Assembly: GCA_004299705.1 (NCBI GenBank)
Contig: SCQS01000054.1
Location: 1 to 64,000 of the forward strand
Source of the DNA: Rhodanobacteraceae bacterium
GTDB lineage: Bacteria; Pseudomonadota; Gammaproteobacteria; Xanthomonadales; Rhodanobacteraceae
Reading direction: 5' to 3'
DNA length: 64,000 bases
Of the stretch, positions 8,164 through 61,201 are shown piece after piece (position 1 is the first letter of the stretch; each line of letters opens with the position of its first letter). The notes under the pieces were generated by a model. That model did no database searches. It was not told the DNA's origin and saw nothing but the letters and a program-made list of their open reading frames with translations. The translations under genes were made by a program, and so were the position numbers.

Positions 8164-8777
8164 GGCGTTTTTTCTGCGGCGCTGACGATCGATCGGCAAC
8201 CCGCATCGAACGTCGCGCGCCAATCCGGGGGCGCAGCGACCGGCCGGATGCAACGGATCTGGATCGCGAGGTTGGAGCGGTAGGCGTAGGTTTCCGTGTA
8301 GGCATTCTTCTCGCGGTTTTCGGTCGCGGTGTAGCGCAGGCTGGAGCTGTTGCCGAGCGTGTTGGCGGCCACGTAGCCTGGCAGCTTGCGCGCGCGCGCG
8401 GTGCCGTCGTCGAGGAATTTCTGGAAGCCGGCGATGCCGTCGACCTGCTCGGTGGTGACGGTGATGCGCGCCAGCGCGTTGGTGTCGCCCGGTGTCTTCA
8501 CCTGCAGCGCCACGAACTGGCGCGGGCCGTCCAGCTTCTCCATCAGCATGGGCCAGCCGTCGGGTGCCGAGAACTTCACCGCGCCGTTCGCGAGCGAGTA
8601 GTCGGCCGCGAGGGCGGCGGGCGCGAGTGCGAGAGCGCCGACGGCGAGCAGCACGTATGCCGTCTTCCCCCTTCGGGACGAAGGGGGATTGAGGGGGATG
8701 CGGCTGTCGGAGTTGCATCTCCCCGCGCCGCGCGCGCGCCCCTTCCGCTGGAAGGGAGTGGATCTGGTGCGATTCAT
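8160..8777 (-). CDS. Hypothetical exported protein with a repeat-derived N-terminus
   Basis: I do not recognise this 205-residue protein. Residues from about 40 to 58 (TAYVLLAVGALALAPAALAA) form a signal-peptide hydrophobic core ending in an ALA-A cleavage site; the mature part begins DYSLANGAVKFSAPDGWP and has two cysteines near its end. The overall pattern (beta-rich, with GW near the start) recalls small PsbP/DcrB-like exported proteins, which is a guess. The start ATG overlaps the ACMSD stop and has GGAGG upstream; its stop overlaps the kynU start, so both ends are fixed by coupling. About 30 N-terminal residues are encoded by the hairpin repeats at 8667-8756 and supply the positive n-region of the signal peptide. 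Confidence 0.72.
   Translation of the reverse strand: MNRTRSTPFQRKGRARGAGRCNSDSRIPLNPPSSRRGKTAYVLLAVGALALAPAALAADYSLANGAVKFSAPDGWPMLMEKLDGPRQFVALQVKTPGDTNALARITVTTEQVDGIAGFQKFLDDGTARARKLPGYVAANTLGNSSSLRYTATENREKNAYTETYAYRSNLAIQIRCIRPVAAPPDWRATFDAGCRSIVSAAEKTP
8667..8756. repeat. Two hairpin repeats inside a signal-peptide coding region
   Basis: CCCCCTTC/GAAGGGGG with a 5-nt loop (8667-8687) and CCCTTCC/GGAAGGG with a GCT loop (8740-8756) are members of the hairpin family that is otherwise intergenic in this window. Here they lie in frame within the first 40 codons of the exported-protein gene and encode residues such as PSSRRGK and STPFQRKG. Confidence 0.75.
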
Positions 8778-11941: not shown

Positions 11942-11953
11942 CGGGAACCGGGA

Positions 11954-12037
11954 AAACCGGGGTCAGAGTGCAATTTCGGGCACGGACGCTCGTTGAACCA
12001 AGCCCATTTCACGAAATTGCACTCTGACCCCGGGTTT
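11954..12037. repeat. REP pair, GGGGTCAGAGTGC type (copy 1)
   Basis: Facing arms AAACCGGGGTCAGAGTGCAA (11954 on) and its reverse complement (12012-12037) flank a 33-bp centre. Outer GGGAACCGGG/CCCGGGTTTCCC sequences extend the symmetry. The same arms recur at 18241-18322 and 39683-39787. Paired palindromes of this type are typical of REP elements mobilised by RAYT (REP-associated tyrosine) transposases; no such transposase is in the window. Confidence 0.85.
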
Positions 12038-12048
12038 CCCGGTTTTCA

Positions 12049-17296: not shown

Positions 17297-18241
17297 ATGG
17301 GGACGGCAACTTCGGCCAGAGACTTCAATTCGGTGCGAATCGTGGAGGTAGGCCCCGAGCGCGACGGCCAGCGTGTCGACAACTGTCTCGCCGCGCTGCT
17401 GAAGGGGGTGCCGAAGACGCATATATACCGGCTGCTCAGGACCGGCCAGGTGCGGGTGAATGGCAAGCGCGCCAAGCCGGACACCCGGCTGGCCGCGGGC
17501 GACCGGCTGCGGATTCCGCCGGTACGGGTGGCCGAACGGGATGCGCCCGCCACGCCGCCGGAGGCGATGCTGAACGAACTTCGGCAGGCCGTGATTTTCG
17601 AGGACAAGGATTTCCTCGCCATCGACAAACCGGCCGGCATCGCCAGCCACGGCGGCAGCGGCATTGCCTTCGGAGCGATCGAACTGCTGCGCGCGGCGCT
17701 GCCCAAGGATCATCTTGAACTCGCGCATCGCCTCGATCGCGACACGTCCGGCGTGCTGGTGTTCGCGCGGTCAAGGCGCGGACTGACGGGCGTGCAGGAT
17801 TTGATCCGCGCCGGCGAAACCAAGAAGCAGTACCTGTGCCTGATGACCGGCAAACTCAAGCGGCAGAAGTTCGATGTCAACGCGCCGCTGCGCAAATCGG
17901 TGCTGGCGGGCGGCGAGCGGATGGTGCGGGTGGACGACGACGGCAAACCGGCACTGACATTCTTCCGCGAAATCGAACGCTACCCCGGCGCGAGCCTGGT
18001 CGAGGCGACCTTGGCGACCGGGCGCACCCACCAGATCCGCGTGCACGCCGCGCACGCCGGGTATCCGCTGGCGGGCGATCCGAAATACGGCGAGCGTGAA
18101 GCCAACAAGCATTTCGCGAAGCTGGGCCTCAAGCGGATGTTCCTGCACGCGGCACGTTTCGAATTCGAACTGGGCGAACGCGCCTACAGTTTTTCGGCGC
18201 CGCTGCCGGATGATTTGCGCGCGGTGCTGGATCGGCTGTAA
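17297..18241 (+). CDS. rluC: Ribosomal large subunit pseudouridine synthase C
   Basis: RluC makes pseudouridines at positions 955, 2504 and 2580 of 23S rRNA in E. coli. The 314-residue protein has an N-terminal S4 RNA-binding domain (about 15-75; VDNCLAALLKGVPKTHIYRLLRTGQVRVNGKRAKPD), then the RluA-type catalytic domain with the catalytic aspartate in AHRLDRDTSGVLVFA and the ATGRTHQIRVH motif. The ATG at 17297 follows GAGGGG and gives the usual family length; the frame upstream is open to 16937 but not family-like. Divergence from rne is a common arrangement in gammaproteobacteria. Its TAA stop is formed partly by the first bases of a REP arm. Confidence 0.95.
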   Translation: MGTATSARDFNSVRIVEVGPERDGQRVDNCLAALLKGVPKTHIYRLLRTGQVRVNGKRAKPDTRLAAGDRLRIPPVRVAERDAPATPPEAMLNELRQAVIFEDKDFLAIDKPAGIASHGGSGIAFGAIELLRAALPKDHLELAHRLDRDTSGVLVFARSRRGLTGVQDLIRAGETKKQYLCLMTGKLKRQKFDVNAPLRKSVLAGGERMVRVDDDGKPALTFFREIERYPGASLVEATLATGRTHQIRVHAAHAGYPLAGDPKYGEREANKHFAKLGLKRMFLHAARFEFELGERAYSFSAPLPDDLRAVLDRL

Positions 18242-18322
18242 AACCGGGGTCAGAGTGCACTTTCCCGCGAATCGTGTCGCAGGTGCTCCGATCTGGCGAG
18301 CGGAAAGTGCACTCTGACCCCG
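18241..18322. repeat. REP pair, GGGGTCAGAGTGC type (copy 2)
   Basis: Arms AAACCGGGGTCAGAGTGCAC at 18241 and its inverse at 18302-18322 enclose a 37-bp centre. The last A of the rluC stop codon is the first base of the element. It separates rluC from ugd. Confidence 0.85.
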
Positions 18323-19709: not shown

Positions 19710-19925
19710 ATGACCAAGCCATCCGACGAACGCTTGAACGACCTGGAGTTCCGCCTGACCTTCCTGGACGACGCCGTGTCGTCGCTGGGCGACAGCGAGG
19801 CGCTGCAATCACAGCGCTTGTTGCAACTGGAAAACGCGTTGACGGCGTTGCGGCAAGAACTCGCGGCCTTGCGCACGAGTCTTTCGGATGATGTGCATGA
19901 CGAACCGCCGCCTCCGCATTATTAG
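19710..19925 (+). CDS. slyX: SlyX family protein
   Basis: A 71-residue coiled-coil protein of the SlyX family, function unknown. The heptad pattern (RLNDLEFRLTFLDDAVSSLG, then LLQLENALTALRQELAALR) and the C-terminal PPPPHY ending are diagnostic. It is encoded 3 bp downstream of ugd. Its TAG stop shares its last base with the first base of repeat element copy A, so anything transcribed through slyX carries elements A and B in its 3' region. Confidence 0.9.
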   Translation: MTKPSDERLNDLEFRLTFLDDAVSSLGDSEALQSQRLLQLENALTALRQELAALRTSLSDDVHDEPPPPHY

Positions 19926-20030
19926 TGCGATCATCCGTGATCGCTGTGCTACGGGTCGATGACGAAAGTGCAGGATGCCCGGTCAGTGGGCACCACCGCG
20001 GCCATCCATGGCCTGACTTTGGAGAAAGCT
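19925..20030 (+). repeat. Two-hairpin 3'-UTR element, copy A
   Basis: 106-bp element starting in the last base of the slyX stop. First hairpin 19927-19944: GCGATCA, loop TCCG, TGATCGC. Second hairpin 20000-20013: GGCCA, loop TCCA, TGGCC, followed by TGACTTT. On the minus strand the hairpins read CACGGATG and CATGGATG, both matching the CsrA/RsmA consensus CANGGANG. Copy B follows with no gap. Confidence 0.85.
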
Positions 20031-20137
20031 GTGCAATCGTCCATGATTGCTGCTTCGTTGGATGCCATGAAGTCGTGATGGCTCTCGCGTCGCAGGCACC
20101 AGAGCGGCCTTCCTTGGCCTGACTTTTCACCCAAAGC
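20031..20137 (+). repeat. Two-hairpin 3'-UTR element, copy B
   Basis: 107-bp tandem partner of copy A. First hairpin 20033-20050 is GCAATC...GATTGC, where the third base pair is A-T instead of the G-C of other copies, a compensatory change. Second hairpin 20106-20119 is GGCC-TTCCTT-GGCC, followed by TGACTTTTCAC. A GCCAT/ATGGC stem is possible in the variable centre. Minus-strand loop motifs are CATGGACG and CAAGGAAG. Confidence 0.85.
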
Positions 20138-20174
20138 GGCTCCGTTGAGGCGCCATTGAGCAAGCGCCGAAGTC

Positions 20175-26072: not shown

Positions 26073-26097
26073 TCGTCAAAAGCGCATCCCCCTCATT

Positions 26098-26148
26098 CCC
26101 CCTTCGTTCCGAAGGGGGAGGACATTACCCCCTTCCAACGGAAGGGGG
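26098..26148. repeat. Two CCCCCTTC-type hairpins between mucD and the MBL hydrolase gene
   Basis: CCCCCTTCG-TTC-CGAAGGGGG (26098-26118) and CCCCCTTCC-AAC-GGAAGGGGG (26128-26148), both with perfect stems, are followed by GCGCGAAGCGCGGGGGGATG. They are members of the hairpin family seen at several other sites in the window. Confidence 0.75.
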
Positions 26149-27095: not shown

Positions 27096-28136
27096 GTGAG
27101 CCGTTTTTCCGGACTATTCGACGACCCTTCGCGCAACGCCAGGTTGCTGGGTGCGCTGTTGTTGTTGCTCGGCCTGGTGCTGCTCGGGTTCACCGAACAT
27201 TCGGATCGTCTGCGCGCGATGGGCGAGGATGCGCTGGGCGGTTTCGTCCTGACCGGCAGCGCGGCCACACCGGGGCCCGATGCCAACGGCAAGCTGGTGC
27301 TGGCGGTCGGCGCGCCCGCGGTGAAGTCGCCGGCGCGCGACGAACAATTCGGCGTCGCGGTGGATGCACCGGCGCTGCTGCGCAAGGTCGAAATGTTCCA
27401 GTGGACCGAAACCCATTTCGGCGGCCAGCGCAACTACGAGATGGACTGGTTCGACCACCCGATCGATTCGTCCACCTTCAACAACCCTGCAGGGCATGCC
27501 AATCCGGGCGCGTTTCCGATCGGCGCGGCACGTTTCGATTCTCCGGACGTGACGGTGGCGGGCTTCAAGCTGGGTGCGGCGCTGGTCGCGATGATTCCGG
27601 GCCCGGAACCCTTCACGCCGAATCTGTCGCACCTGCCGCCCAACATGGCGGCGACGTTCCAGGCGCACGATGGCACGTTGCTGACCAGTGCGAATCCGGC
27701 GCATCCGCAAGTCGGCGACCTGCGCGTCAGTTGGCTGCGCATCGTGCCCGCGGAGTTGACGGTGTTCGCGCGCGACCGTGACGGGACATTGGTACAGGCG
27801 CACGACCCGGCTGGCGATCAGATCGCGCAGGTGCTGCTGGGCAGGTTGTCGCTCACCGACGTGTTGACCGATGCGCCGCAGCCACCGCATTTCAAGTGGG
27901 CACGACGGGTGCTGGCGGTGTTGCTGGCATGGGCGGGCGTCGCGCTGTTGCTGCCGCCCACGCGCCGCCGCGACCGCGCATTGGCGCTGGCCATCGCGGC
28001 GGTACCGCTGGCGTTGCTGGCCGCGGCGTACTGGTTCGACGTGCGGATGCTGGCGTGCGCGGTGCTGGTACTCATCGCCGTGCTGGCCGCACTGGCCGCG
28101 GTTTGGCGTTGGCGCAATCCTGGAGCGGGTTGGTAG
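27096..28136 (+). CDS. TMEM43/LUMA-family membrane protein
   Basis: A 346-residue membrane protein of the TMEM43 family, whose eukaryotic members sit in the nuclear envelope; bacterial functions are unknown. One membrane segment follows the N-terminus (LLGALLLLLGLVLLGFTEH, about 17-35). A large extracytoplasmic domain has the family KVEMFQWTETHFGG motif. Three or four C-terminal hydrophobic segments follow (from about 272). The start is a GTG at 27096; no in-frame ATG gives a complete first helix. It follows the MBL hydrolase gene by 9 bp. Its TAG stop lies 4 bp before repeat copy E, which is in the opposite orientation. Confidence 0.8.
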   Translation: MSRFSGLFDDPSRNARLLGALLLLLGLVLLGFTEHSDRLRAMGEDALGGFVLTGSAATPGPDANGKLVLAVGAPAVKSPARDEQFGVAVDAPALLRKVEMFQWTETHFGGQRNYEMDWFDHPIDSSTFNNPAGHANPGAFPIGAARFDSPDVTVAGFKLGAALVAMIPGPEPFTPNLSHLPPNMAATFQAHDGTLLTSANPAHPQVGDLRVSWLRIVPAELTVFARDRDGTLVQAHDPAGDQIAQVLLGRLSLTDVLTDAPQPPHFKWARRVLAVLLAWAGVALLLPPTRRRDRALALAIAAVPLALLAAAYWFDVRMLACAVLVLIAVLAALAAVWRWRNPGAGW

Positions 28137-28140
28137 AGCG

Positions 28141-28247
28141 AGCTGTCGTGAAAAGTCGGACCAGGGAAGGTCGCTCTGGTGTTGCATGACCGATGTGCCA
28201 TGTTCTTGCCGGACATCGAACAACGCAGCGATCAGGGATGATCGCAC
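28141..28247 (-). repeat. Two-hairpin 3'-UTR element, copy E (reverse orientation)
   Basis: 107-bp copy filling the convergent gap between the TMEM43-like gene (stop 4 bp away) and the Nudix gene (stop 3 bp away). Read on the minus strand, hairpin 1 (28228-28245) is GCGATCA-TCCC-TGATCGC and hairpin 2 (28159-28172) is GACC-TTCCCT-GGTC. In hairpin 2 the second pair is A-T where copies B and D have G-C. A CGATGT/ACATCG stem forms in the centre. On the plus strand the loop motifs are CAGGGATG and CAGGGAAG. Confidence 0.85.
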
Positions 28248-28250
28248 GAG

Positions 28251-28805
28251 TCACGCATGTTCGAGGAACCACAACCCTGCGAACAGTTTCGGATCAATCG
28301 AATACCCTTGTTCGGACATCGAACGCAGCCACGTACTGGCCTGCGCGCGCGGAATGGCGTGCACCACGATGTCCTCGGTTGTGTCGCCGCCGCCTGCGCC
28401 GATCTTGCGCAAGTCCAGGGCGCGCACGAAGTGGATCATCTCGGTGCTCATGCCCGCCGACGATGGGCCCGAATGCAGCGGCACCACGCGCTCGCAAGTC
28501 CAGCCGGTCTCCTCGATCAGCTCGCGTCGCGCGGCGGCGGCCACGCTGTCGTCGTCGGCGTGGCCGGCATCGCCGATCAGGCCGGCCGGCATCTCGATGG
28601 TGAACTTCAGGATCGGCACGCGGTACTGCTCGACGAACAGCACGCGGTCATCCGGCGTGACCGCGACGATGATCACCGCGCCCTGCGGGTTGTTGCGCTC
28701 GACGAACTCCCAGCGGCCGCGTTGTTTCAGCGTCAGCCACTTGCCGGCATGCAGCACTTCGGCGGGAGCGTCGGAATCGACGGGGATGCTGGTATCCCGA
28801 TTCAT
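28251..28805 (-). CDS. Nudix hydrolase (ADP-ribose pyrophosphatase-like)
   Basis: A 184-residue Nudix hydrolase that probably cleaves a nucleoside diphosphate derivative such as ADP-ribose. The Nudix helix is recognisable as AARRELIEETGW preceded by a glycine/aspartate-rich loop, with the first acidic position filled by aspartate. The core also shows VLFVEQYRVPILKFTIEMPAGLIGD, typical of the ADP-ribose pyrophosphatase branch. The ATG at 28805 overlaps the stop of the upstream exonuclease gene. It is the last gene of a three-gene coupled operon, and repeat copy E begins 3 bp after its stop. Confidence 0.88.
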   Translation of the reverse strand: MNRDTSIPVDSDAPAEVLHAGKWLTLKQRGRWEFVERNNPQGAVIIVAVTPDDRVLFVEQYRVPILKFTIEMPAGLIGDAGHADDDSVAAAARRELIEETGWTCERVVPLHSGPSSAGMSTEMIHFVRALDLRKIGAGGGDTTEDIVVHAIPRAQASTWLRSMSEQGYSIDPKLFAGLWFLEHA

Positions 28806-30391: not shown

Positions 30392-31495
30392 ATGCCGATC
30401 ACGCTTGCCGCCTTGCGCGAAACCGCTGCTGGGGAACGCCGCGTTGCCGTGACGCCGGAGACGGCCAAGAAATACGCAGCGCGTGGTATTCGCGTGTTGC
30501 TGGAACGCGGCGCAGGCGAGCGGGCCGGTTTTCCCGACGCGGCGTATGCAGGCGTCGAGTTCGCCGATGCGGTCGCGGTCGCGGCACAGGCCGATGTCAT
30601 GTTGTGCGTGCAGCCACCCGCCGACGAACGCGCGACGGCGATCAAGGAAGGCGCCGCGCTGATCGGGCAGCTGCATCCACACCACGCGGCCGAGCGGCTG
30701 GCCGGCTACGCGCAGCGCAAGTTCGAGGCGTTCTCGCTGGAATTGTTGCCGCGCACCACGCGTGCGCAGGCGATGGACGTGTTGTCTTCGCAGGCAGCGG
30801 TCGCCGGCTACCGCGCGATGCTGATCGCGGCGGAAGCCGCGCCCAAGTTTTTCCCGATGCTGACGACCGCCGCGGGCACCTTGCGGCCGTCGAAGGTGTT
30901 GGTGATCGGCGCGGGCGTGGCAGGCTTGCAGGCGATCGCGACCGCGCGCCGGCTGGGCGCGATGGTGGAAGGTTTCGACGTGCGCCCGGAAACCCGCGAG
31001 CAGATCGAGTCGCTGGGCGCCAAGTTCCTCGACCTCGGTGTCAACGCGGCGGGCGAGGGCGGCTATGCGCGCGAACTGACCGCCGAGGAACGCGCGGCGC
31101 AGCAGGCCAAACTGGCCGAGCACGTGAAGACGGTGGACGTGGTCGTCACCACCGCGGCGGTGCCGGGTCGTCCGTCGCCGAAGATCGTGCCGATGTCGAT
31201 GGTGGATGGCATGAAGGCCGGTGCGGTGATCGTCGACCTGGCCGCCGAAGGTGGCGGCAACTGCGAGGCGACGCAACCCGGCGCGCGCATCGAGCGCCAC
31301 GGCGTCACCATCATCGGCCCCCTGAACCTGCCGTCCGGCGCGCCACTGCACGCGTCGGAAATGTACGCGCGCAACCTCATGCATTTCAGCGAGCTGGTGA
31401 TTGTCGACGGCGCATGGAAGCCCGACTTCGAGGATGAACTGGTCGCGAAAACCTGTGTCGCGCGTGGCGGCGAGGTGGTGTTCGGCAAACCGTAA
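30392..31495 (+). CDS. pntAA: NAD(P) transhydrogenase subunit alpha part 1
   Basis: This 367-residue protein is the soluble NAD(H)-binding domain I of proton-translocating transhydrogenase, encoded separately as in other split pnt systems. It has the AlaDH/PNT N-terminal domain (ETAAGERRVAVTPE) and the Rossmann domain with VLVIGAGVAGLQAIATARRLGA and FDVRPETREQIESLG. The ATG at 30392 follows GGGAG. It lacks the membrane segments found in the C-terminus of fused PntA; these are encoded by pntAB almost 2 kb downstream. An opposite-strand three-gene module and hairpin repeats separate the two, so the usual pntAA-AB-B operon is broken. Confidence 0.95.
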   Translation: MPITLAALRETAAGERRVAVTPETAKKYAARGIRVLLERGAGERAGFPDAAYAGVEFADAVAVAAQADVMLCVQPPADERATAIKEGAALIGQLHPHHAAERLAGYAQRKFEAFSLELLPRTTRAQAMDVLSSQAAVAGYRAMLIAAEAAPKFFPMLTTAAGTLRPSKVLVIGAGVAGLQAIATARRLGAMVEGFDVRPETREQIESLGAKFLDLGVNAAGEGGYARELTAEERAAQQAKLAEHVKTVDVVVTTAAVPGRPSPKIVPMSMVDGMKAGAVIVDLAAEGGGNCEATQPGARIERHGVTIIGPLNLPSGAPLHASEMYARNLMHFSELVIVDGAWKPDFEDELVAKTCVARGGEVVFGKP

Positions 31496-31512
31496 CTACG
31501 TGTGATGCATCG

Positions 31513-31620
31513 CCCTTCGGCACGAAGGGGGAACGTGGGGGATGGCTTTGGGAGTTTTTTGCGAGGCGACATCCCCCCAGCGCTGACGCGCTGACCCCCT
31601 TCGCAGCGCGAAGGGGGTCA
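31513..31620. repeat. CCCCCTTC-type hairpins after pntAA
   Basis: CCCTTCG-GCA-CGAAGGG (31513-31529) and a stronger TGACCCCCTTCGC-AGC-GCGAAGGGGGTCA with a 13-bp perfect stem (31592-31620). A GGAGTTTTTTGCGAGG segment lies between them. They mark the junction between pntAA and the inserted opposite-strand module. Confidence 0.75.
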
Positions 31621-33663: not shown

Positions 33664-35171
33664 CGCTGCCGACGTGGATGCCGGCGCTGGCCGACGCGAT
33701 CTATTTCCTCGCAGCGGTATCGTTCATTTGGGGCATCAAGCGCATGAGTTCGCCACGCACCGCCCGCCACGGCATCCTGTGGGCGGGCGGGGGCATGGCC
33801 GCCGCGATCCTGGTGACCTTCTTCCTGCCGGGGATGCACCACCTGCTCGCGATCGTCGTTTCCGTGGTCGTCGGTGGCGGCCTGTCCTGGTGGGTCGGGC
33901 GGCGGGTCAAGATGACCGCGATGCCGCAGATGGTGGCGCTGTTCAACGGCATGGGCGGCGGCGCGGCGGCGGCGATCGGCGCGGTCGAGCTGATCAAGTT
34001 CAACGCGGCGCTCAAGTTGTTGACGGCGCCGTCGCGACTGGTTCCGGATACCTCGCCGATCCAGCCCGAAGCGTGGGCCACGCACGCCGCGCAGGCGATT
34101 CGGACCGCGGTGCACTTGAGTCCGGTCGAGTTGACACTGGCGTTCCTCGGTATCCTGATCGGCGCGATTTCCTTCACCGGTTCGCTGATCGCGTTCGCCA
34201 AGTTGCAAGGCTGGATGGACAAGCGTTACATCTACCCGTTGCAGCGTTGGGTCAACCTCGCGATTTTCATTGCCGCGGTGGTGTGCGGAATCCTCGCATT
34301 GATCGCCGCCATCGAGGGCCAGCCGTTTGCGTGGGGCCTGTTGATCGCGTTCTTCGCGTTGACCTTGATCTTCGGCATCGCGATGACCCTGCCGATCGGC
34401 GGCGCCGACATGCCGGTGGTGATCTCGATGTACAACGCATGCACCGGGCTCGCGGTGGCGTGCGACGGGTTCGCATTGCAGAACGAGGCCATGATCATCG
34501 CCGGCATGGTGGTGGGCGCGGCCGGCACGCTGTTGACGCAGTTGATGGCCAAGGCGATGAACCGCTCGCTTGCCAACGTCCTCTTCAGCAACTTCGGTGG
34601 CGGCGGTGGCGCGGCGCAGCAGGAAATCGCGGGCGCGTTGAAACCGATCGACGCCAACGACGCCGCGGTGATGATGGCCTACGCCGAGCGCGTCGCGATT
34701 GTGCCGGGTTACGGCATGGCGGTGGCGCAGGCGCAGCACAAGGTGTGGGAATTCGCGAAGCTCTTGATCGAGCGTGGCGTGAAAGTGAAGTTTGCGATCC
34801 ATCCGGTGGCGGGCCGCATGCCCGGCCACATGAACGTGCTGCTGGCCGAGGCCGGCGTGCCCTACGACCTGATCGAGGACATGGACGACATCAACCCAGA
34901 GTTCCCAAACATCGACGTGGCGCTGGTGATCGGCGCCAACGACGTGGTGAACCCGGTTGCGCGCACCGACAAGAACTCGCCGATCTACGGCATGCCGATC
35001 CTGGATGTCGCCAAGGCGAAAAACGTCATCGTGATCAAGCGCGGTCGCGGCAAGGGTTTTGCCGGCATCGAGAACGCGCTGTTCTACGCCGACAACACCC
35101 GCATGTTGTACGGCGACGGCCAGGCCGCGGCCGGCGAACTGGTGGCGGGGCTCAAAACCCTGGATGCTTAG
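33660..35171 (+). CDS. pntB: NAD(P) transhydrogenase subunit beta
   Basis: PntB holds the membrane domain and the NADP(H)-binding domain III of the proton-translocating transhydrogenase, which makes NADPH from NADH using the proton gradient. The 503-residue protein has nine or so N-terminal membrane segments, the conserved LPIGGADMPVVISMYNACTG region, and the C-terminal NADP domain (VPGYGMAVAQAQHKVWEF, HPVAGRMPGHMNVLLAEAG, IGANDVVNPVA, KRGRGKGFAGIENALFY). The start overlaps the pntAB stop. Repeat copy C begins 3 bp after the TAG stop. Confidence 0.97.
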   Translation: MTLPTWMPALADAIYFLAAVSFIWGIKRMSSPRTARHGILWAGGGMAAAILVTFFLPGMHHLLAIVVSVVVGGGLSWWVGRRVKMTAMPQMVALFNGMGGGAAAAIGAVELIKFNAALKLLTAPSRLVPDTSPIQPEAWATHAAQAIRTAVHLSPVELTLAFLGILIGAISFTGSLIAFAKLQGWMDKRYIYPLQRWVNLAIFIAAVVCGILALIAAIEGQPFAWGLLIAFFALTLIFGIAMTLPIGGADMPVVISMYNACTGLAVACDGFALQNEAMIIAGMVVGAAGTLLTQLMAKAMNRSLANVLFSNFGGGGGAAQQEIAGALKPIDANDAAVMMAYAERVAIVPGYGMAVAQAQHKVWEFAKLLIERGVKVKFAIHPVAGRMPGHMNVLLAEAGVPYDLIEDMDDINPEFPNIDVALVIGANDVVNPVARTDKNSPIYGMPILDVAKAKNVIVIKRGRGKGFAGIENALFYADNTRMLYGDGQAAAGELVAGLKTLDA

Positions 35172-35174
35172 CTG

Positions 35175-35280
35175 GTGCGATCGTCCGTGATCGCTGCCGC
35201 ACTGAGCGAAACGTTGCGCAGGGCGCCTTGAACACCTGTACATCAGAACGGACGTCCCTGCCCTGACTTTTCACAACAGC
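35175..35280 (+). repeat. Two-hairpin 3'-UTR element, copy C
   Basis: 106-bp copy filling the convergent gap between pntB (stop 3 bp upstream) and the minus-strand membrane gene (stop 2 bp beyond). Hairpin 1 (35177-35194): GCGATCG-TCCG-TGATCGC. Hairpin 2 (35250-35263): GGACG-TCCC-TGCCC, less perfect than in other copies, followed by TGACTTTTCACAACAGC. Minus-strand loop motifs are CACGGACG and CAGGGACG. Confidence 0.85.
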
Positions 35281-35282
35281 CG

Positions 35283-35777
35283 CTACGAATGGCGCAGTTT
35301 TTGGGGCCGCAAGAGCCAGGCCGCGATGATCGCGGCCAGCACCGCGGCACCGGCGTAGATCAGGATGGACAGCGCGCTCAATCCCAGCTTGGCGACTTGC
35401 GTAACCAGCCCCATGCCGCCGGTGCGGAACGCAAGGCCGAACGGAAACCCGGTCACCGCCGCGACCCGTGCCAACGCGACCAGGCAGGCGGCGTAGAAAC
35501 CCGCCACCAGCACCGCCAGCGCGGCCACCGGCCCGGCCCAGCGTGCGTACAGGCAACCGCAGAACTTCAGCACCACCGTCAGCGGGATCGCCAGCAGCAG
35601 CACCGGCCAGCTAGGCGGAATGCCGATCACGATCGCCGCGAACGCGGAAACAGCGCCCGTGGCAAGCGTGCACATCAGCCAGCCGAACGCCGAGGTGAGC
35701 ACGCCAAGCGCGCGTGCCAGCCATGCAGTCGAGGCATGCGCGGGAGCGGAAGGCAGCGGGTTGGCGGAATCGTCCAC
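35283..35777 (-). CDS. Small multi-pass membrane protein, function unknown
   Basis: I do not recognise this protein. From a GTG at 35777 it would have about 164 residues with four hydrophobic segments (about 24-46, 48-65, 73-100 and 124-155), short loops, and a basic C-terminus (WLLRPQKLRHS). There is no ATG in a sensible place and no convincing ribosome site, so the start is uncertain; the frame is open to 35996, but that extension would overlap the sufT start. It is convergent with pntB, with only repeat copy C between the stops. Confidence 0.55.
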   Translation of the reverse strand: MDDSANPLPSAPAHASTAWLARALGVLTSAFGWLMCTLATGAVSAFAAIVIGIPPSWPVLLLAIPLTVVLKFCGCLYARWAGPVAALAVLVAGFYAACLVALARVAAVTGFPFGLAFRTGGMGLVTQVAKLGLSALSILIYAGAAVLAAIIAAWLLRPQKLRHS

Positions 35778-39641: not shown

Positions 39642-39682
39642 AGGTTGGATTCTGCGTGCGGCGTGGAGCATGCGATTATCGT

Positions 39683-39787
39683 GAAACCGGGGTCAGAGGG
39701 AAACCGGGGTCAGAGTGCACTTTCGGGCACTGGCATCCCAAGGCATGCTGGCGCTTGCACGAAAGCGCACTCTGACCCCGGTTTCCC
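39683..39787. repeat. REP cluster, GGGGTCAGAGTGC type (copy 3, with duplicated arm)
   Basis: GAAACCGGGGTCAGAGG (39683) is followed directly by a second AAACCGGGGTCAGAGTGCAC (39701), and the inverted arm GCGCACTCTGACCCCGGTTT lies at 39765-39784. The extra half-arm suggests a recombined or partly duplicated element. It sits between the asparaginase-domain gene and yajC. Confidence 0.85.
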
Positions 39788-39879
39788 CGGGCATGCGTAA
39801 ACGGCAAACCCATGGCATAATCCGTCGTCTTTTGGGCAGACAAGCCGCCCTGCGGCTGCCCCGCAACCGAGAGTCCCGC

Positions 39880-42174: not shown

Positions 42175-43137
42175 ATGGAAATCTTTCGTCACGACCTCAA
42201 CATCAACTTCCTTGGCATGCGCAAGGTCAGCATCGTCATTTCGGCGATCTGCCTGATCGTGTCGGTGTGGGCCATCACGGTGAAGGGCCTCAATTACGGG
42301 CTGGATTTCACCGGCGGCGTGTTGATCCAGGTGAGCTACGAGCGGCCGGTCGATGTCGGCGACGTGCGTTCGGCCCTGATGAAGGTCGGCTTCGAGCACG
42401 CGGTGGTGCAGAGCGTCGGCGGCACCCGCGAAATCTCGATCCGCCTGCAAATTCCGAAAACCGAAGCCAAGAAGCAGAGCCCGGATCAGATCGCCGGCGC
42501 GATTTCGAAGAAGGTGCTGACCGCCCTGCAGGTCGACAATCCGGGCGCCAAGCTCGCGCAGTCGCCCGACTTCGTGGGACCCGAGGTCGGCCAGCAATTG
42601 AAGACCAGCGGCATCTACGCGGTGATCGTGGTGATCATCGGCATCATGGTGTACTTGGGGATGCGCTTCGAGAAACGCTTCGCCGTAGCCGCGGTGGCCA
42701 GCGAAATCCACGATACCGTGATCACGCTCGGCATCATCGCGCTGGTGCAGCGTGAGTTCGACATGACCGTGCTGGCGTCGATCCTCGCGGTGGTCGGTTA
42801 CTCGATCAACGACAAGGTGGTGGTGTTCGACCGCGTGCGCGAACTGTTCCGCTTGACCCGCAAGGCCAAGACCCAGGACATTCTCAATCGCGCGATCAAC
42901 AACACCCTGTCGCGTACCATCATCACCTCGGGCTTCACCGCGCTGGCGATGGCCTCGCTGTACTTGTTCGGCGGCCCCGCCGTGCACGGCTTCGCGATCA
43001 CCATGCTGATCGGCATCCTGGTCGGCACGCTCTCGTCGATCTTCTTCGCCAGCCCGCTGTTGCTGTGGCTGGGTGTGTCGAAGAAGGACCTGATGCCGGT
43101 GACCAAGGAAAATCCCGAGCTGGCCCGGCGACCATGA
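42175..43137 (+). CDS. secF: Protein translocase subunit SecF
   Basis: SecF partners SecD in the SecDF export motor. The 320-residue protein has six membrane segments, the periplasmic entry motif GLDFTGGVLIQVSY, and the conserved SINDKVVVFDRVRE and SRTIITSGFTALAMASLYLFGG in the membrane half. It begins MEIFRHDLNINFLGMRK. Repeat copy D starts 3 bp after the TGA stop and would lie in its 3' untranslated region. Confidence 0.97.
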   Translation: MEIFRHDLNINFLGMRKVSIVISAICLIVSVWAITVKGLNYGLDFTGGVLIQVSYERPVDVGDVRSALMKVGFEHAVVQSVGGTREISIRLQIPKTEAKKQSPDQIAGAISKKVLTALQVDNPGAKLAQSPDFVGPEVGQQLKTSGIYAVIVVIIGIMVYLGMRFEKRFAVAAVASEIHDTVITLGIIALVQREFDMTVLASILAVVGYSINDKVVVFDRVRELFRLTRKAKTQDILNRAINNTLSRTIITSGFTALAMASLYLFGGPAVHGFAITMLIGILVGTLSSIFFASPLLLWLGVSKKDLMPVTKENPELARRP

Positions 43138-43140
43138 TTT

Positions 43141-43248
43141 GTGCGATCGTCCCTGATCGCCGTGTGATGTTGCGGTGTGAGCGGTGTGATTCGCGGACAG
43201 TGGATGGACCAAAGCGGCCTTCCTTGGCCTGACTTTTCACAACAACTG
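43141..43248 (+). repeat. Two-hairpin 3'-UTR element, copy D
   Basis: 108-bp copy 3 bp after the secF stop, in the convergent gap with rapA (rapA stop 47 bp further). Hairpin 1 (43143-43160): GCGATCG-TCCC-TGATCGC. Hairpin 2 (43216-43229): GGCC-TTCCTT-GGCC, followed by TGACTTTTCACAACAACTGC. Minus-strand loop motifs are CAGGGACG and CAAGGAAG. Confidence 0.85.
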
Positions 43249-43295
43249 CTCGGAGCGGGGGCGTATCGGCGTGCGCTCTGTGTGTCCACGCGCCT

Positions 43296-49440: not shown

Positions 49441-49525
49441 TCGAAGGTCATGGTGGATTGGCATCGCGCTCGGAGGGTCGTCAGTCCCCTCCACCACAAC
49501 CCCCGAACGGCGCGTCGCTCTCCTT

Positions 49526-49602
49526 CCCCCTTCGGTGCGAAGGGGGATCGAGGGGGATGGCTTTTCGCAGTACGACATCCCTCCGCCCTTCGTTCCGAAG
49601 GG
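49526..49602. repeat. CCCCCTTC-type hairpins beyond the first M13 peptidase gene
   Basis: CCCCCTTCG-GTG-CGAAGGGGG (49526-49546) and CCCTTCG-TTC-CGAAGGG (49586-49602), with GATCGAGGGGGATGG between them. They lie between the peptidase stop at 49630 and its terminator at 49440. Confidence 0.7.
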
Positions 49603-49629
49603 GGTGTCTTATGCTTTTCCCGAGTCCCG

Positions 49630-51786
49630 TTACCAGATCTTCACCGGGTTCTTGCGCACCATCTTGTCGCCGGCCTTGCACTGGAACGCCTGCGCGAACT
49701 GCGGCATGTTGCTGGCCGATGCGAACGCGCGGATCTTCGCGGGTGCGTGCGGATCGACGTTCAACATCAACTCGGCGGTTTTCTCGCGCGCGGTGCCTTC
49801 CCAGACGCGGGCCGAGTTGAGGAAGAAACGCTGGTCCTCGGTCATGCCGTCGATCTTCGCATCGGCTTCCTTGGGGTCGGCCTTGAGCGGGGTCTGCAGC
49901 GCGGTGTAGGCGATGTTGAGGCCGCCGAGATCGGCGATGTCCTCGCCCAGCGTCAGCTTGCCGTTGACGTGCAGGTCGGGCTTGCCGGGGATCGGCGTGT
50001 AGCCGTCGTACTGCTTGGCCAGCTCGGTGGTGCGTGCGTCGAAGTTCTTCTTGTCCTGCGGCGTCCACCAATTCACGCGGTTGCCATGGCCGTCGAACTG
50101 GCTGCCCTGGTCGTCGAAGCCGTGACTGGATTCGTGTCCGATCACGAAACCGATGCCGCCGTAATTGAGCGCATCGTCACCCTTGGCATAGAAGAACGGT
50201 GGCTGCAGGATCGCGGCGGGGAAGTTGATGGTGTTGGTGGACGGGTCGTAATAGGCGTTGACGGTCTGCGGCGTCATGCCCCATTGCTTGCGGTCGGTAG
50301 GCTTGCCGATCTTGCCGATGTCGTAGTGGTAGTTGTACTTGCCGGCGGCTTCGAGGTTGGCGTACCACTGGTTCGGCTGGATGGTCAGGCCCGACCAGTC
50401 GCGCCATTCGCCCTTGTCCGGGTAGCCGATCTTGGGCAGGAACAGCGCCCACTTTTCCAGCGCCTTCTGCTTGGTCGCCTCGCTCATCCAGTCGACGTGC
50501 TCGATGTGTTCCTTGAGCGCGTTGCGGATATTGGTGACCAGTTGTTCGGCACGCTGCTTGGCTTCCGGCGGGAAGTACTTGGCGACGTACAGCTCGCCCA
50601 GACCCATGCCCATCGCGCTGTTGACCGCACCGACCACGCGTTTCCAGCGCTCCTTCTGCTCGGGCTGGCCGCGCAGGGTCTTGCCGTAGAAGTCGAACTG
50701 GTTGTCCTGGAACGCCGTGCTCAGGGCCGGCGAGGCGTTGCTGATCAGGTGGAACTTGAGGTACGCCTGCCATTGCGATGCCGGCGCGGTCGCCAGCAGC
50801 TTGTCGAACTCGGCCATGAACTTCGGCTGCGACAGCGAGAAGCCCTGGCCGATGTCCACGCCCTGGGCCTTGAAGAATTTCTCCCAGCTGAAGTGCGGGG
50901 TAATCTTGTCGGCCTCGGCGATGCTGACGAAGTGGTATTCGTTGTCGAGATTGCGCAACTCGGTCGGCGACAGCGAGTGCCTGGCAAGTTCGGTTTCGAA
51001 CTTCATCGCCGCGTCGGCCTGTTTCTGGGCATCGGCGGCAGGCGTGCCGGCCAGTTCCAGCGACTTGGCGATGTACTTCACGTAGGCGTCGCGGATGTCC
51101 TTGTACTTCGCATCGGTGTAGTAGGCCGGCGTCGGCAGGCCCAGACCATCCTGGAACACGTAACCGATCTGCTTGGTGGCGTCCTTGAAATCGGCGCCCG
51201 AGCCGAAGCTGAAAACGTAGCTGTCGCCGTTGTTGAAGCTGGTGTCGAGGAAGTCGGCGATCTCGGCCGGGGTCTTCAGCGCATCGATCGCGGCCAACTG
51301 CGGCTTGATCGGGTCGTAGCCCAGCTTGTCGATCGCCGCCGTATCCATGCCGGCGGCGTACAGGTCACCCAGCTTCTGCTGCAAGGCGCTGCCGGTGTGG
51401 TCCTTGGCATCCGTAGCGGCGGTTTCGAGGATCTGCTTCTGCTCCAGGATGCTCTTTTCGTGCAGGATGCCGAACGCGCCCCAACGGGTCTGGTCGGACG
51501 GAATCGGGTTGGCCTTGTTCCACTTCGCATTCACGTATTGGGCGAAGTCGTTGCAGGGGTTGTACTGGTCGTCGAGGGTGAACGCCATCGATTGATCCGG
51601 CGGGATGGCCACGGTCGCAGCCGGGGCCGGGGCGGTGCTTGCCGAGGCCGGCGCCGAGGTCGATGCCGAGGCGGCCGGGGCCGACGCCGATGCCGACGAA
51701 TGCTGCGAGGACGTGTTGCTGCAGCCGGAAACTGCAAGGGCTGCGCATACGGCCAGCGCGATCGGGGTCATCAGGTGCTTGTGCAT
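49630..51786 (-). CDS. M13-family metallopeptidase lipoprotein (copy 1)
   Basis: A 718-residue zinc endopeptidase of the neprilysin/PepO family (M13), anchored as a lipoprotein: MHKHLMTPIALAVCAALAVSGC, with the lipobox cysteine at residue 22. A serine/alanine/proline linker follows (about 25-60), then the M13 domain (PCNDFAQYVNAKWNKANPIP). The active site is HESSH at 551-555 (ligands H551, H555; base E552), with the third ligand E615 and D619 in LGEDIADLGG and the C-terminal NVDPHAPAKIRAF. The ATG at 51786 gives the lipobox at the right distance. It is strongly similar to the next gene, showing tandem duplication. Confidence 0.95.
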   Translation of the reverse strand: MHKHLMTPIALAVCAALAVSGCSNTSSQHSSASASAPAASASTSAPASASTAPAPAATVAIPPDQSMAFTLDDQYNPCNDFAQYVNAKWNKANPIPSDQTRWGAFGILHEKSILEQKQILETAATDAKDHTGSALQQKLGDLYAAGMDTAAIDKLGYDPIKPQLAAIDALKTPAEIADFLDTSFNNGDSYVFSFGSGADFKDATKQIGYVFQDGLGLPTPAYYTDAKYKDIRDAYVKYIAKSLELAGTPAADAQKQADAAMKFETELARHSLSPTELRNLDNEYHFVSIAEADKITPHFSWEKFFKAQGVDIGQGFSLSQPKFMAEFDKLLATAPASQWQAYLKFHLISNASPALSTAFQDNQFDFYGKTLRGQPEQKERWKRVVGAVNSAMGMGLGELYVAKYFPPEAKQRAEQLVTNIRNALKEHIEHVDWMSEATKQKALEKWALFLPKIGYPDKGEWRDWSGLTIQPNQWYANLEAAGKYNYHYDIGKIGKPTDRKQWGMTPQTVNAYYDPSTNTINFPAAILQPPFFYAKGDDALNYGGIGFVIGHESSHGFDDQGSQFDGHGNRVNWWTPQDKKNFDARTTELAKQYDGYTPIPGKPDLHVNGKLTLGEDIADLGGLNIAYTALQTPLKADPKEADAKIDGMTEDQRFFLNSARVWEGTAREKTAELMLNVDPHAPAKIRAFASASNMPQFAQAFQCKAGDKMVRKNPVKIW

Positions 51787-51851
51787 GTGGAGGTCCTTTG
51801 GCGTTGCGAATAGGGTTGCCGACACGCTTGCGGCGCGCGGTCAGAACCAGC

Positions 51852-51902
51852 GATTGTGCCAGCAACGCTGCGTGATTGGTGGCGTATGTGCCGAAGGTCA
51901 TG
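51852..51902 (-). promoter_or_regulatory. Conserved promoter region of M13 copy 1
   Basis: Reading on the minus strand, CATGACCTTCGG (51902 downward) is followed, with TGACC starting at 51900, 38 bp later by CACAAT in the context TGCTGGCACAATC. The same TGACC-N-TGCTGnCACAATC layout at identical spacing precedes M13 copy 2 (54315-54364), which supports CACAAT as the -10 with an extended TGn. Confidence 0.45.
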
Positions 51903-51913
51903 GCGCGGTCGTG

Positions 51914-51938
51914 AAAACGCCGCACTTGCGTGCGGCGT
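51914..51938 (-). terminator. Intrinsic terminator of the second M13 peptidase gene
   Basis: On the minus strand ACGCCGCAC-GCAA-GTGCGGCGT is followed by TTTT. Its stem core GCCGCA and TTGC loop are nearly the same as in the terminator at 49414-49440, so it was copied along with the gene. Confidence 0.8.
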
Positions 51939-51989
51939 CGGAAGCATCATCCATTGGGACGATGGTATGCATCGTTGGCCCCGCTCCCT

Positions 51990-52040
51990 CACCCCAACCC
52001 TTTCCCCCATGCGATGAAGCCGCATGGGGGGAAAGGGAGT
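51990..52040. repeat. Hairpin repeat CCCTTTCCCCCATGCG
   Basis: CCTCACCCCAACCCTTTCCC introduces a stem CCCTTTCCCCCATGCG (51998-52013) that pairs with CGCATGGGGGGAAAGGG (52021-52037) with one bulged G and a 7-nt loop. It lies between the M13 copies and beyond the terminator at 51914-51938. Confidence 0.6.
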
Positions 52041-52086
52041 TTCAACTGCGCGTTACGCTGTTCCGGTCCCCGGTCCGGAACTCCCG

Positions 52087-54249
52087 TTACCAGATCTTTA
52101 CCGGATCCTTGCGCACCATCTTGTCGCCGGCCTTGCATTGGAACGCTTGCGCGAACTGCGGCATGTCGCTGGCCGATGCGAACGCACGGATTTTGCCGGG
52201 TGCGTGCGGGTCGACGTTCAATGCGAGTTCTGCGTACTTCAGACGCGCGGTGCCTTCCCAGACCCCGGCGGCGCTGAGGAAGAAACGCTGGTCCTGGGTC
52301 ATGCCATCGATCTTCTGGTCGGCTTGCTGTGGGTTGGCCTTGAGCGCGTTCTGCAAGGCGGTGTAGGCGATGTTGAGGCCACCAAGGTCGGCCGTGTCTT
52401 CGCGGATCGTCAGTTTGCCGTTGACGTGCAGGTCGGGCTTGCCGGGAATCGGCGCGTAAGCGTCATATTGTTTCTCAAGTTCGGCCTCCAATTGGTCGAA
52501 CCGCTCGCGGTCCTGCTTGGTCCACCAGTTGACATGGTTGCCGTGGCCGTCGAAATCGCTGCCGTATTTGTCGAATCCGTGCGTGGTTTCGTGGCCGATC
52601 ACGTAACCGATGCCGCCATAGTTCACCGCATCGTCGCCTTTCGGGTAGAAGAACGGCGGTTGCAGGATCGCGGCCGGGAAGTTGATGGTGTTGTTGGAGT
52701 CGCTGTAGTAGGCGTTGACCGTCTGCGGCGTCATCTGCCACAGCTTGCGGTTGGTGGGCTTGCCGATCTTCGACAGGTCGTAGTGGTAGTTGTATTTCGA
52801 CGCCGCTTCGAGGTTGGCATACCACTGTCCCGGCTGGATGCTCAAGCCCGACCAGTCACGCCAGTCGCCCTTGTCCGGGTAGCCGATCTTGGGCAGGTAC
52901 AGTGCAAGCTTTGCCAGCGCCTTCGTTTTGGTTTCGGGGCTCATCCACGTCAGCTTTTCGACGTGTTCCTTGAATGCGGCGCGGATGTTGGCGACCAACT
53001 GCTCGGCGCGCGCCTTGGCCTCGGGCGGGAAGTACTTGGCCACGTACAGCTCGCCGAGGCCCATGCCCATCGCGCCGTTTACGCCCCGCACCACCTGCTT
53101 CCAGCGCGGCTTCTGCTCGGGCTGTCCGGCCAGTGTCTTGCCGTAGAAGTCGAACTGGTTGTCGCGGAACGGTTGGCTGAGGTCCGAGGCCGCACTGCTG
53201 ATCAGTTGCGTTTTCAGGTACTCCTGCCATTGCGCGATCGATGCCGTCGCAAGCAGCTTGTCGAATTCGGCCATGAACTTCGGCTGCGACATCGAGAAGC
53301 CCTTGGTGATGTCCACGCCCTGCGCCTTGAAGAAGTTCTGCCAGTTGAAGTGCGGCGTGATCTTGTCGGCTTCGGCCAGCGTGACGAAGTGGTACTCGTT
53401 GTCGGGCTTCAGCAATTCCTGCGGCGACAGCGAGGCCTTGGCGAGTTTGGTTTCGAACGCCAGCACCTGCGCGGCCTGCTTCGCCGCATCGGCCTCGGGC
53501 GTGCCGGTCAGCTCGAGCGACTTGGTCAGGTATTTGACATAGGCGTCGCGGATGTCCTTGTACTTGGCTTCGGTGTAGTAGGCGGGCGTGGGCAGGCCCA
53601 AGCCGCCCTGCGAGACAAAGCCGATCTGCGTCGAGGCGTTCTTGAAATCGGCGCCGGAACCGAAGCCGAACACGTAGCCGTCGCCCTCGTTGTAACTGGT
53701 GTTGATGAAGTCGACGATGTCGGCCGGGGTCTTCAGCGCGTCGATGGCGGCAAGCTTGGCCTTGATCGGGTCGTAGCCCAATTTGTCGATGGCCGCGGTG
53801 TCCATGCCGGCCGCGTACAGGTTGCCGAGCTTTTGCTGCAACTCGGTGCCCTTGTGGTCCTTGGCATCGGCAGCCGCGTTCGCAAGGATCTGGTTCTGCT
53901 CCTGCATGCTCTGCTGCGCCAGCATCTCGAAACCGCCCCACACCGTCTGGTCGGACGGGATCGGGTTGGCCTTGTTCCACTTGGCGTTGACGTAGTCCTC
54001 GAAGTTGTTGCACGGGTTGTACTGGTCATCGAGGGTGAAGGCGATCGGTTGGGCCGGCGAAATGGCGACGCTGGTGGCCGGTGCGGGTGCCGCCGCGGTG
54101 CGCGCGGGGGCTGGTGCCGCCGTTGAAGCCGTGGAGGCGGGCGCCGTCGCCGGTGCCGATGAATGCTGCGAAGTGGTCTTGCTGCAGCCGGAAACCGCAA
54201 GTGCTGCGCACACGGCCAGCGCGATCGGGGTCATCAGGTGTTTGTGCAT
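52087..54249 (-). CDS. M13-family metallopeptidase lipoprotein (copy 2)
   Basis: A 720-residue paralogue of the preceding gene with the same lipoprotein start (MHKHLMTPIALAVCAALAVSGC). The M13 catalytic residues are kept: HETTH at 553-557 and E617/D621 in IREDTADLGG. The residue before the zinc-ligand glutamate is arginine here, where copy 1 and neprilysin have glycine (GED/GEN). The C-terminal region (NVDPHAPGKIRAFASASDMPQFAQAFQCKAGDKMVRKDPVKIW) is almost identical to copy 1. The start at 54249 is set by the lipobox. Its promoter is divergent from the beta-CASP RNase-like gene. Confidence 0.95.
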   Translation of the reverse strand: MHKHLMTPIALAVCAALAVSGCSKTTSQHSSAPATAPASTASTAAPAPARTAAAPAPATSVAISPAQPIAFTLDDQYNPCNNFEDYVNAKWNKANPIPSDQTVWGGFEMLAQQSMQEQNQILANAAADAKDHKGTELQQKLGNLYAAGMDTAAIDKLGYDPIKAKLAAIDALKTPADIVDFINTSYNEGDGYVFGFGSGADFKNASTQIGFVSQGGLGLPTPAYYTEAKYKDIRDAYVKYLTKSLELTGTPEADAAKQAAQVLAFETKLAKASLSPQELLKPDNEYHFVTLAEADKITPHFNWQNFFKAQGVDITKGFSMSQPKFMAEFDKLLATASIAQWQEYLKTQLISSAASDLSQPFRDNQFDFYGKTLAGQPEQKPRWKQVVRGVNGAMGMGLGELYVAKYFPPEAKARAEQLVANIRAAFKEHVEKLTWMSPETKTKALAKLALYLPKIGYPDKGDWRDWSGLSIQPGQWYANLEAASKYNYHYDLSKIGKPTNRKLWQMTPQTVNAYYSDSNNTINFPAAILQPPFFYPKGDDAVNYGGIGYVIGHETTHGFDKYGSDFDGHGNHVNWWTKQDRERFDQLEAELEKQYDAYAPIPGKPDLHVNGKLTIREDTADLGGLNIAYTALQNALKANPQQADQKIDGMTQDQRFFLSAAGVWEGTARLKYAELALNVDPHAPGKIRAFASASDMPQFAQAFQCKAGDKMVRKDPVKIW

Positions 54250-54314
54250 GTGGAGGTCCTGTGAGGTTGCGAAATGGATTGCCGCCATGCGTGTCGCGCG
54301 TGGCCAAGACTTCT

Positions 54315-54364
54315 GATTGTGACAGCACCCGCAAACGCCGCGAGGGGGATAGGCCATTGGTCAC
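54315..54364 (-). promoter_or_regulatory. Conserved promoter region of M13 copy 2
   Basis: On the minus strand GTGACCAATGGC is followed by TGCTGTCACAATC with the same 38-bp spacing from the TGACC box to CACAAT as in copy 1, although the sequence between has diverged. Shared spacing with divergent filler suggests retained function. Confidence 0.45.
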
Positions 54365-59054: not shown

Positions 59055-59115
59055 GGACATCCCCGGAATGGTGTGAAAGTGAAGCCCGGCGCTTGCGGCG
59101 CGTCGGGCTTGCCCG

Positions 59116-59159
59116 AGTATGCATGTGCGCATTGGCTGCGACATACCCCGAAAGTCATG
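59116..59159 (-). promoter_or_regulatory. Conserved promoter of S10 copy 1
   Basis: CATGACTTTCGGGGTATG (minus strand, 59159 to 59142) and, 20 nt further, CATACT (59121-59116) as a -10 candidate. The box overlaps the -35 position. Both parts and the 20-nt spacing are the same at the other two S10 genes. Confidence 0.6.
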
Positions 59160-59190
59160 TGCGGGTCGTTGCCATGACAGTGAGGGCTGG

Positions 59191-59221
59191 AAAAAAACCG
59201 GCGCGATTTGCATCGCGCCGG
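59191..59221 (-). terminator. Intrinsic terminator of S10 carboxypeptidase copy 2
   Basis: On the minus strand CCGGCGCGAT-GCAA-ATCGCGCCGG is followed by seven T residues. It lies about 170 bp past the stop of copy 2, with a separate inverted-repeat block between. Confidence 0.92.
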
Positions 59222-59261
59222 GTGATGGTTGCGCCGAGGTTTTCGTTTGGTTGCAACGCCG

Positions 59262-59337
59262 CTCGCCCTGAGGTATCGAAGGGGTGAACGGCATTCTGCC
59301 TGTATCCGTTCGTGGTTCGATACCTCACCACGAACGG
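59262..59337. repeat. GAGGTATCGAA/TTCGATACCTC inverted repeat
   Basis: GAGGTATCGAA near 59270 and TTCGATACCTC at 59316-59326 form an 11-bp inverted pair. CCGTTCGTGG (59306-59315) and CCACGAACGG (59328-59337) form a nested perfect 10-bp stem. It lies between the copy 2 stop and its terminator and looks like a dispersed intergenic repeat. Confidence 0.55.
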
Positions 59338-59388
59338 GTACTCTCGGGCCAGACTGCTACTGATGCTTGCGCAAGGTTGCGCTGAAAC

Positions 59389-61041: not shown

Positions 61042-61103
61042 GGTCGATCCCCGAGGGTTGAACAAGAAAGTCCCGGGTGTGTCGACACATCCGGGCGCGG
61101 CCG

Positions 61104-61149: not shown

Positions 61150-61201
61150 GTCGCGGGAGCCTCGGCAAGCGTGTGCCGGGCCGTGCTTCCGAGTCGGGAA
61201 C

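Follow-up and report, generated by a model that had tools for sequence, protein, structure and literature searches.

A dispersed pair of GGA-loop hairpins, conserved at orthologous sites and mostly lying behind gene ends, in Rhodanobacteraceae

A 64-kb window of a Rhodanobacteraceae genome (positions 1 to 64,000 of contig SCQS01000054.1, the whole stretch analysed here) contains five copies of an element made of two hairpins with ANGGAN loops. The two hexaloops are strand-specific and under strong selection, while the spacer between them is not conserved. The explanation that best fits the data, held with somewhat less than even confidence, is a REP-like hairpin pair that lies mostly directly behind gene 3' ends and most likely acts in cis. 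Bacteria commonly carry dispersed hairpin repeats, whose function is disputed. In the present case, selection can be seen at the level of individual loop bases in orthologous copies, and the bases that stay fixed match the binding site of a global regulator, CsrA, so that function becomes directly testable. If CsrA binds, the element would form a dispersed antisense layer in the Csr network; if it does not, another factor would read a CsrA-like loop at gene ends.

Copy E has its GGA strand on the plus strand, spans about 28134..28251 and fills the gap between a convergent TMEM43-like gene (stop at 28136) and a NUDIX gene (stop at 28251); the first-pass annotation had found the element there but gave it a slightly narrower span (28141-28247). 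Its hairpin 1 carries CAGGGAAG at 28162..28169 (+) on a GACC/GGTC stem, and its hairpin 2 carries CAGGGATG at 28233..28240 (+) on a GCGATC/GATCGC stem. The remaining copies lie on the minus strand. Copies A (19921..20038; 8-mers at 20003-20010 and 19932-19939) and B (20027..20144; 8-mers at 20109-20116 and 20038-20045) are in tandem. Copy C (35171..35288; 8-mers at 35253-35260 and 35182-35189) lies between the convergent pntB (stop at 35171, plus strand) and a gene without Pfam match ending at 35283 (minus strand), and copy D (43137..43254; 8-mers at 43219-43226 and 43148-43155) between the convergent secF (stop at 43137, plus strand) and the gene labelled rapA in the first-pass annotation (stop at 43296, minus strand). 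In C, D and E, the stop codon of the opposite-strand gene (pntB, secF and NUDIX, respectively) is located 3 nt past GCAC. The GGA strand of these three copies had been described as the 3'-UTR strand of the convergent gene; the genes are indeed convergent, but the opposite strand is equally a 3'-UTR, of pntB, secF and the NUDIX gene.

All ten 8-mers reported earlier are present (10/10), each closing an ANGGAN hexaloop with a C-G pair; the claim of ten C-ANGGAN-G hairpins on one strand of the element is thus confirmed, with every GGA inside the hexaloop. The two 8-mers are 71 nt apart in 5/5 window copies. Stems of 4 bp or more, counting G-U pairs, occur at 13 of the 43 CANGGANG 8-mers in the window, and 10 of these 13 belong to the element.

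Read on the GGA strand, the model of the element is 118 nt long and consists of a CGAAGCGGCTGTTGTGAAAAGTCA-like block, hairpin 1 (consensus GGCC-ANGGAN-GGCC), GTTCTGGTG, about 40 free nucleotides, hairpin 2 (consensus GCGATC-ANGGAN-GATCGC) and AC. The pattern CANGGANG-N63-CANGGANG matches the genome 15 times and its backwards-read counterpart 0 times; the 15 exact-spacing copies align without gaps. Their helices covary (98.7% of cells paired, 4/10 pairs changed on both sides, score reached by 0/500 shuffles), and their RNAalifold consensus is two separate hairpins. Longer variants insert extra hairpin modules carrying GGA motifs of their own (CANGGANG sites). Start-to-start spacing is 71, 72 or 73 nt in 112 of the 124 copies of the core set (124/171), and the inter-block distance is only 52-57 nt in 85 distinct copies found with a pattern that permitted 48-66 nt. 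Among 316 neighbouring pairs from across the family, some of them in overlapping regions, the spacing is 30-31 nt in 59 and 71-74 nt in 189, corresponding to a short class with gaps of 22-23 nt and a long class with gaps of 63-66 nt; the two classes are about 42 nt, or four DNA turns, apart.

The middle segment is near random in sequence, and neither covariation nor a helix was detected in the middles of the genus. Middles from the genus (121) have a mean folding z of 0.21 and those from other genera (31) one of -0.80, with 23% of the latter below -2; a structured middle was rejected as a general feature, a hairpin occurring in some middles of other genera only. Stem wobble was likewise rejected as a means of calling the strand: the early G-U excess on the GGA strand (9 G-U versus 5 A-C) vanished in larger sets (12 versus 16 with 80 more regions), and neither strand shows a G-U preference, the largest set giving 18 G-U versus 24 A-C (10 versus 12 in distinct stems). 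This null result is compatible with RNA function because repair of imperfect palindromes could also erase wobble.

Comparison of 59 orthologous pairs, found by both flanks at a stem identity of 0.9 or more and not all independent, revealed changes at 9/472 of the loop A and GGA positions versus 132/233 of the two N positions. The middle changed at 986/2323 positions and the stems at 42/1179, the stem figures here and below being biased low because only references with two intact loops were used and the stems served to screen partners. The fixed loop bases changed at 15/528 positions at a stem identity of 0.8. Partners found by flanks at 0.6 or more, a set that includes doubtful alignments, gave 85/825 for the fixed loop bases, 217/408 for N, 195/2070 for the stems and 1575/4090 for the middle. 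The earliest orthologue count (0/248 changes in fixed loop bases) was set aside as biased, since it comprised only copies pre-chosen for the loop.

Loops were also scored across model matches, in 172 rows made of 69 own-genome and 103/116 further matches (13 were omitted as partial or weak, among them some second copies of tandems); one row was dropped from the loop and spacing measurement. Among the resulting 171 matches, the ANGGAN loop is found in hairpin 2 of 163 and, at the standard place, in hairpin 1 of 128, the latter count scoring longer variants as misses and neither being independent because the model was trained on such loops. The last loop position (N6) is G in just 5/248 hairpins.

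The fixed bases are those of a known protein-binding site. As described in PMC7652899, the RsmE/CsrA hairpin has an ANGGAN hexaloop in which A and GGA are contacted and N is variable, the CsrB repeat is CAGGA(U/A/C)G, and a CsrA dimer can span two sites separated by 10 to 63 nt. The loop and closing pair of the element equal the published hairpin, and its N6 is rarely G, as in the CsrB repeat; it seems unlikely that the four fixed bases, the two free ones, the loop size and the closing pair would all agree by chance. The proposal that the loops are of CsrA/RsmA type is therefore upheld, A and GGA being kept while both N vary across species. The first-pass annotation had named the lack of a CsrA/RsmA gene as a point against binding; the genome contains one csrA gene, whose 74-aa product is ordinary by eye.

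In the GGA orientation, the neighbouring genes of 143 copies are minus/minus in 81 cases, minus/plus in 28, plus/minus in 20 and plus/plus in 14 (26, 12, 10 and 5, respectively, for the 53 copies of the own genome). The excess of 81 over 14 has a binomial p of about 1e-12, with copies taken as independent though orthologues are not. Genes were called with a codon-based caller trained on the window, which misses short genes and tRNAs, and the orientation set was drawn from 164/172 rows (matches under 90 nt omitted), 11 being at contig ends and 10 overlapping a called gene. The convergent arrangement of copies C, D and E is thus not typical, with only 20/143 copies so placed versus 81/143 antisense to both neighbours. 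Of 101 antisense genes downstream of the element, 81 have their stop within -20 to +9 nt of the match end, and hairpin 2 often sits directly against a stop codon or tRNA 3' end of the non-GGA strand; 42/143 copies (28 minus/plus, 14 plus/plus) have no called gene ending at hairpin 2.

A similar bias is seen in other genera, where 40 rows gave 32 minus/minus, three minus/plus, two plus/minus, one plus/plus and two unclear cases; these are 40/51 matches (L279, L282 and L289, from other families, and a few weak ones were omitted), and 18/40 represent two recurring places (tRNA-Glu and rpoA-rplQ) and are not independent. The 3' ends of tRNA-Glu, tRNA-SeC or tRNA-Val genes are 2-6 nt away in 12/40 of these rows. 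The 40 long regions were hand-picked from an order-wide list, mostly for best scores. The order tRNA-Glu, element, ferredoxin gene recurs in several genera and is found in the genome of the window too; the order rpoA, element, rplQ also recurs in several genera. Pfam supports the identity of RpoA, L17 and ferredoxin in L264, L266 and L033 only; elsewhere it rests on gene length and alignment. In L011, the element is apparently flanked by the end of rpmJ (recognised by eye) and by an intrinsic terminator of the non-GGA strand.

Behind hairpin 1, the non-GGA strand has intrinsic terminators in 12/123 copies (3/123 after shuffling), 5 of the 12 being minus/plus copies; the GGA strand has them within 150 nt behind hairpin 2 in 3/123 (0 when shuffled). 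Among 122 copies, no -10-like motif recurs at a constant position on the 5' side of the GGA strand, and no such positioned promoter-like motif was seen for the other strand either. These surroundings suggest that the non-GGA strand is probably the transcribed one in most copies.

A covariance model built from 15 copies gave 69 matches at E up to 1 in the own genome (3.62 Mb). Of 30 relatives, 15 belong to the same genus and have 20-116 matches, and the remaining 15 have none, so that all 16 genomes of the genus hold 20-116 each (scoring stops at 118 per genome). An order-wide draw found the element in 45/299 genomes and 16/86 genera, with per-genome numbers that are lower bounds because 12 candidates were scored per genome; within the family it is present in 22/40 genomes and 15/26 genera. 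The strict pattern occurs in 99 stretches of a named sequence collection; among the matches listed (80 of 99), all come from metagenome-assembled genomes, labelled Lysobacterales 66-474, Rhodanobacteraceae, Lysobacteraceae, Rhodanobacter, or only Gammaproteobacteria or Proteobacteria. As part of the same tentative REP-like explanation, the element would be old and family-wide. The same gap may be empty, filled or oppositely filled across related species, and 14 filled/empty comparisons, several of them poorly aligned, gave no clean insertion boundary.

In a comparison of window 35171-35288 with L115, L117, L120 and L121, this convergent pntB gap holds the element in inverted orientation in related species; further species have different sequences there, including repeats. 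Three tandem copies lie behind a tRNA-SeC gene at L287:1501-1954. In another family of the order, L282 (genome G300, about 1160-1600) contains eight tandem 60-nt repeats with two GGA-type hairpins each, comprising 15 GGA loops and one degenerate one, with one imperfect stem, apparently between two opposite-strand genes (by eye).

If the element is REP-like, the hairpin pair would act on the transcript or DNA of the upstream gene, read on the strand opposite GGA. Like Escherichia coli REPs near stop codons, for which such a role is proposed, the transcribed hairpins might control 3'-end stability, termination or ribosome release, and some further factor might recognise the loops, which read UCC on the non-GGA strand. 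One of the nearest known kinds is the REP/BIME class, with its GTAG and CGTC families. In PMC3733652 and PMC12306157, REPs are short multi-copy extragenic palindromes, mainly downstream of co-directional or convergent genes and some of them at stop codons; the former places REPs downstream of coding regions, between unidirectional and convergent genes, and the latter attributes ribosome stalling to REPs within 15 nt of a stop codon. The element shares the character of a repeated extragenic palindrome downstream of genes, except in the 42/143 copies without a called gene end at hairpin 2. It differs from REP/BIME in having no GTAG or CGTC tag in its flank consensus, a hexaloop with four fixed bases, and two hairpins that differ from each other, point the same way, keep a fixed spacing and persist at orthologous sites.

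The minus/minus excess, the stops near hairpin 2 and the hairpin-1 terminators of the non-GGA strand argue for REP-like action. Against it stand the copies without a gene end at hairpin 2, the 5/12 terminators in minus/plus copies and the lack of a significant wobble preference on the non-GGA strand (24 versus 18); it names no factor and leaves the identity of the loop with a CsrA site, the free N and the avoidance of G at N6 unexplained. Per-site purifying selection at orthologous copies favours a local function over some 60 redundant sponges. The REP-like explanation ranks narrowly above a CsrA-binding antisense RNA because gene surroundings and orthologue conservation are set against the loop; neither is proven.

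Alternatively, each copy may give rise to a short RNA of the GGA strand, antisense or divergent, whose two hairpins take up one CsrA dimer, so that the copies together serve as a dispersed sponge or as local antisense regulators; this is a serious possibility, judged rather less probable than not. In its favour, the two hairpins share the exact ANGGAN loop with its C-G closure despite otherwise dissimilar stems; orthologues retain A and GGA while N changes; N6 is rarely G and csrA is present; longer variants bear further CANGGANG sites; and a repeat array with such loops exists in another family. The gaps of the short class fit the bridging range given in PMC7652899, and those of the long class are at or just above its limit. 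However, most copies have both neighbouring genes antisense to the GGA strand, which shows no promoter signature, few terminators and no excess of G-U over A-C, the scanned loci have no Rfam match, and one among some 60 copies should be nearly dispensable, yet orthologous copies are kept. The earlier inference of dispersed RsmA-binding or sponge elements accordingly keeps the support of the loop motif and csrA but is weakened by the antisense setting, the promoter result, the 3/123 terminators and the wobble counts.

Known sequestering RNAs were compared on the same features. According to PMC7652899 and PMC7694677, CsrB/C, RsmX/Y/Z and the RsmU of Xanthomonas carry GGA in hairpin loops, with two or more sites per RNA. 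The element likewise has ANGGA in hairpin loops at two or more sites, but an intrinsic terminator at its 3' end was found in just the 3/123 copies; unlike CsrB- or RsmZ-type RNAs, it is known from DNA alone, is dispersed in up to 116 matches per genome and has no Rfam match in the scanned loci. An autonomous sRNA gene on the GGA strand was rejected, there being no fixed-place promoter motif upstream and few terminators. TwoAYGGAY (RF01731) and Bacillaceae-1, proposed CsrA sponges with two strong CsrA-motif matches each (PMC4333381), resemble the element in this motif; neither is among the Rfam matches of the scanned loci. Rfam gave no family match to the element in the window at gathering scores, nor in copy E and 14 further loci at E up to 5 or 2.

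Orthology with Pseudomonas rsmZ, suggested by the shared ferredoxin neighbour, was also rejected and stays no more than a weak lead, with no RF00166 match at the element in the searched genomes and loci; RF00166 has no match in the own genome and exceeds the cut-off in 0/41 genomes. PMC3395598 places an rsmZ-like gene and fdxA downstream of rpoS. An RsmZ locus over the cut-off was found in 1/274 genomes; judged by eye, it lies behind a same-strand rpoS, and no fdxA was recognised in the adjacent 1.5 kb. A sub-threshold RsmZ-like match (RF00166, 31.3 bits, cut-off 44) lies in L299 (G040:C15:348877-349023), in a different genome of the same family and away from the element matches listed for it. 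No description of the element was recognised among the open full-text papers listed for CsrA with REPs, RsmA with repeats, the hairpin sequences themselves, or the repeats and sRNAs of the family (subscription papers being outside this set).

A further and doubtful variant would make the element a conserved docking place for CsrA/RsmA, with two sites, on the strand antisense to gene ends and operon junctions, including rpoA-rplQ and tRNA-Glu-ferredoxin, at 20-116 copies per genome in one genus; antisense transcription would titrate the regulator or mark the junctions. Improbable by comparison is a mobile REPIN-like element without host function, whose ends a transposase would recognise as single-stranded hairpins: tandem copies occur, gap occupancy varies among species, and REPINs, which are REP doublets linked to RAYT transposases, likewise combine conserved ends with a spacer that is less so, at inter-REP distances fixed at 71 and 110 bp (PMC3116915), but orthologous copies of the element keep both ends while the spacer diverges, its units are separate hairpins with no pairing signal in the middle rather than inverted copies that pair together, its consensus carries no GTAG or CGTC tag, no clean insertion boundary was seen, and, in a transposase search that covered Y1_Tnp alone, 9/16 genus genomes holding 21-100 matches (two of them only 73% and 89% complete) had no Y1_Tnp match, contrary to what a RAYT (Y1 transposase) association would predict.

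The window contains other repeats. A dispersed repeat, AAACCGGGGTCAGAGTGCA, occurs at 11946-12044, 18238-18270 and 39681-39790, twice as an inverted pair with 26-33 nt between the arms, and a dispersed hairpin repeat like CCCCCTTCGGGACGAAGGGGG at 8645-8702, 26083-26123, 31489-31544 and 49504-49559. Tandem duplications are found at 57405-62974 (three copies about 1.9-2.0 kb apart) and at 49625-54327 (two copies about 2.46 kb apart).
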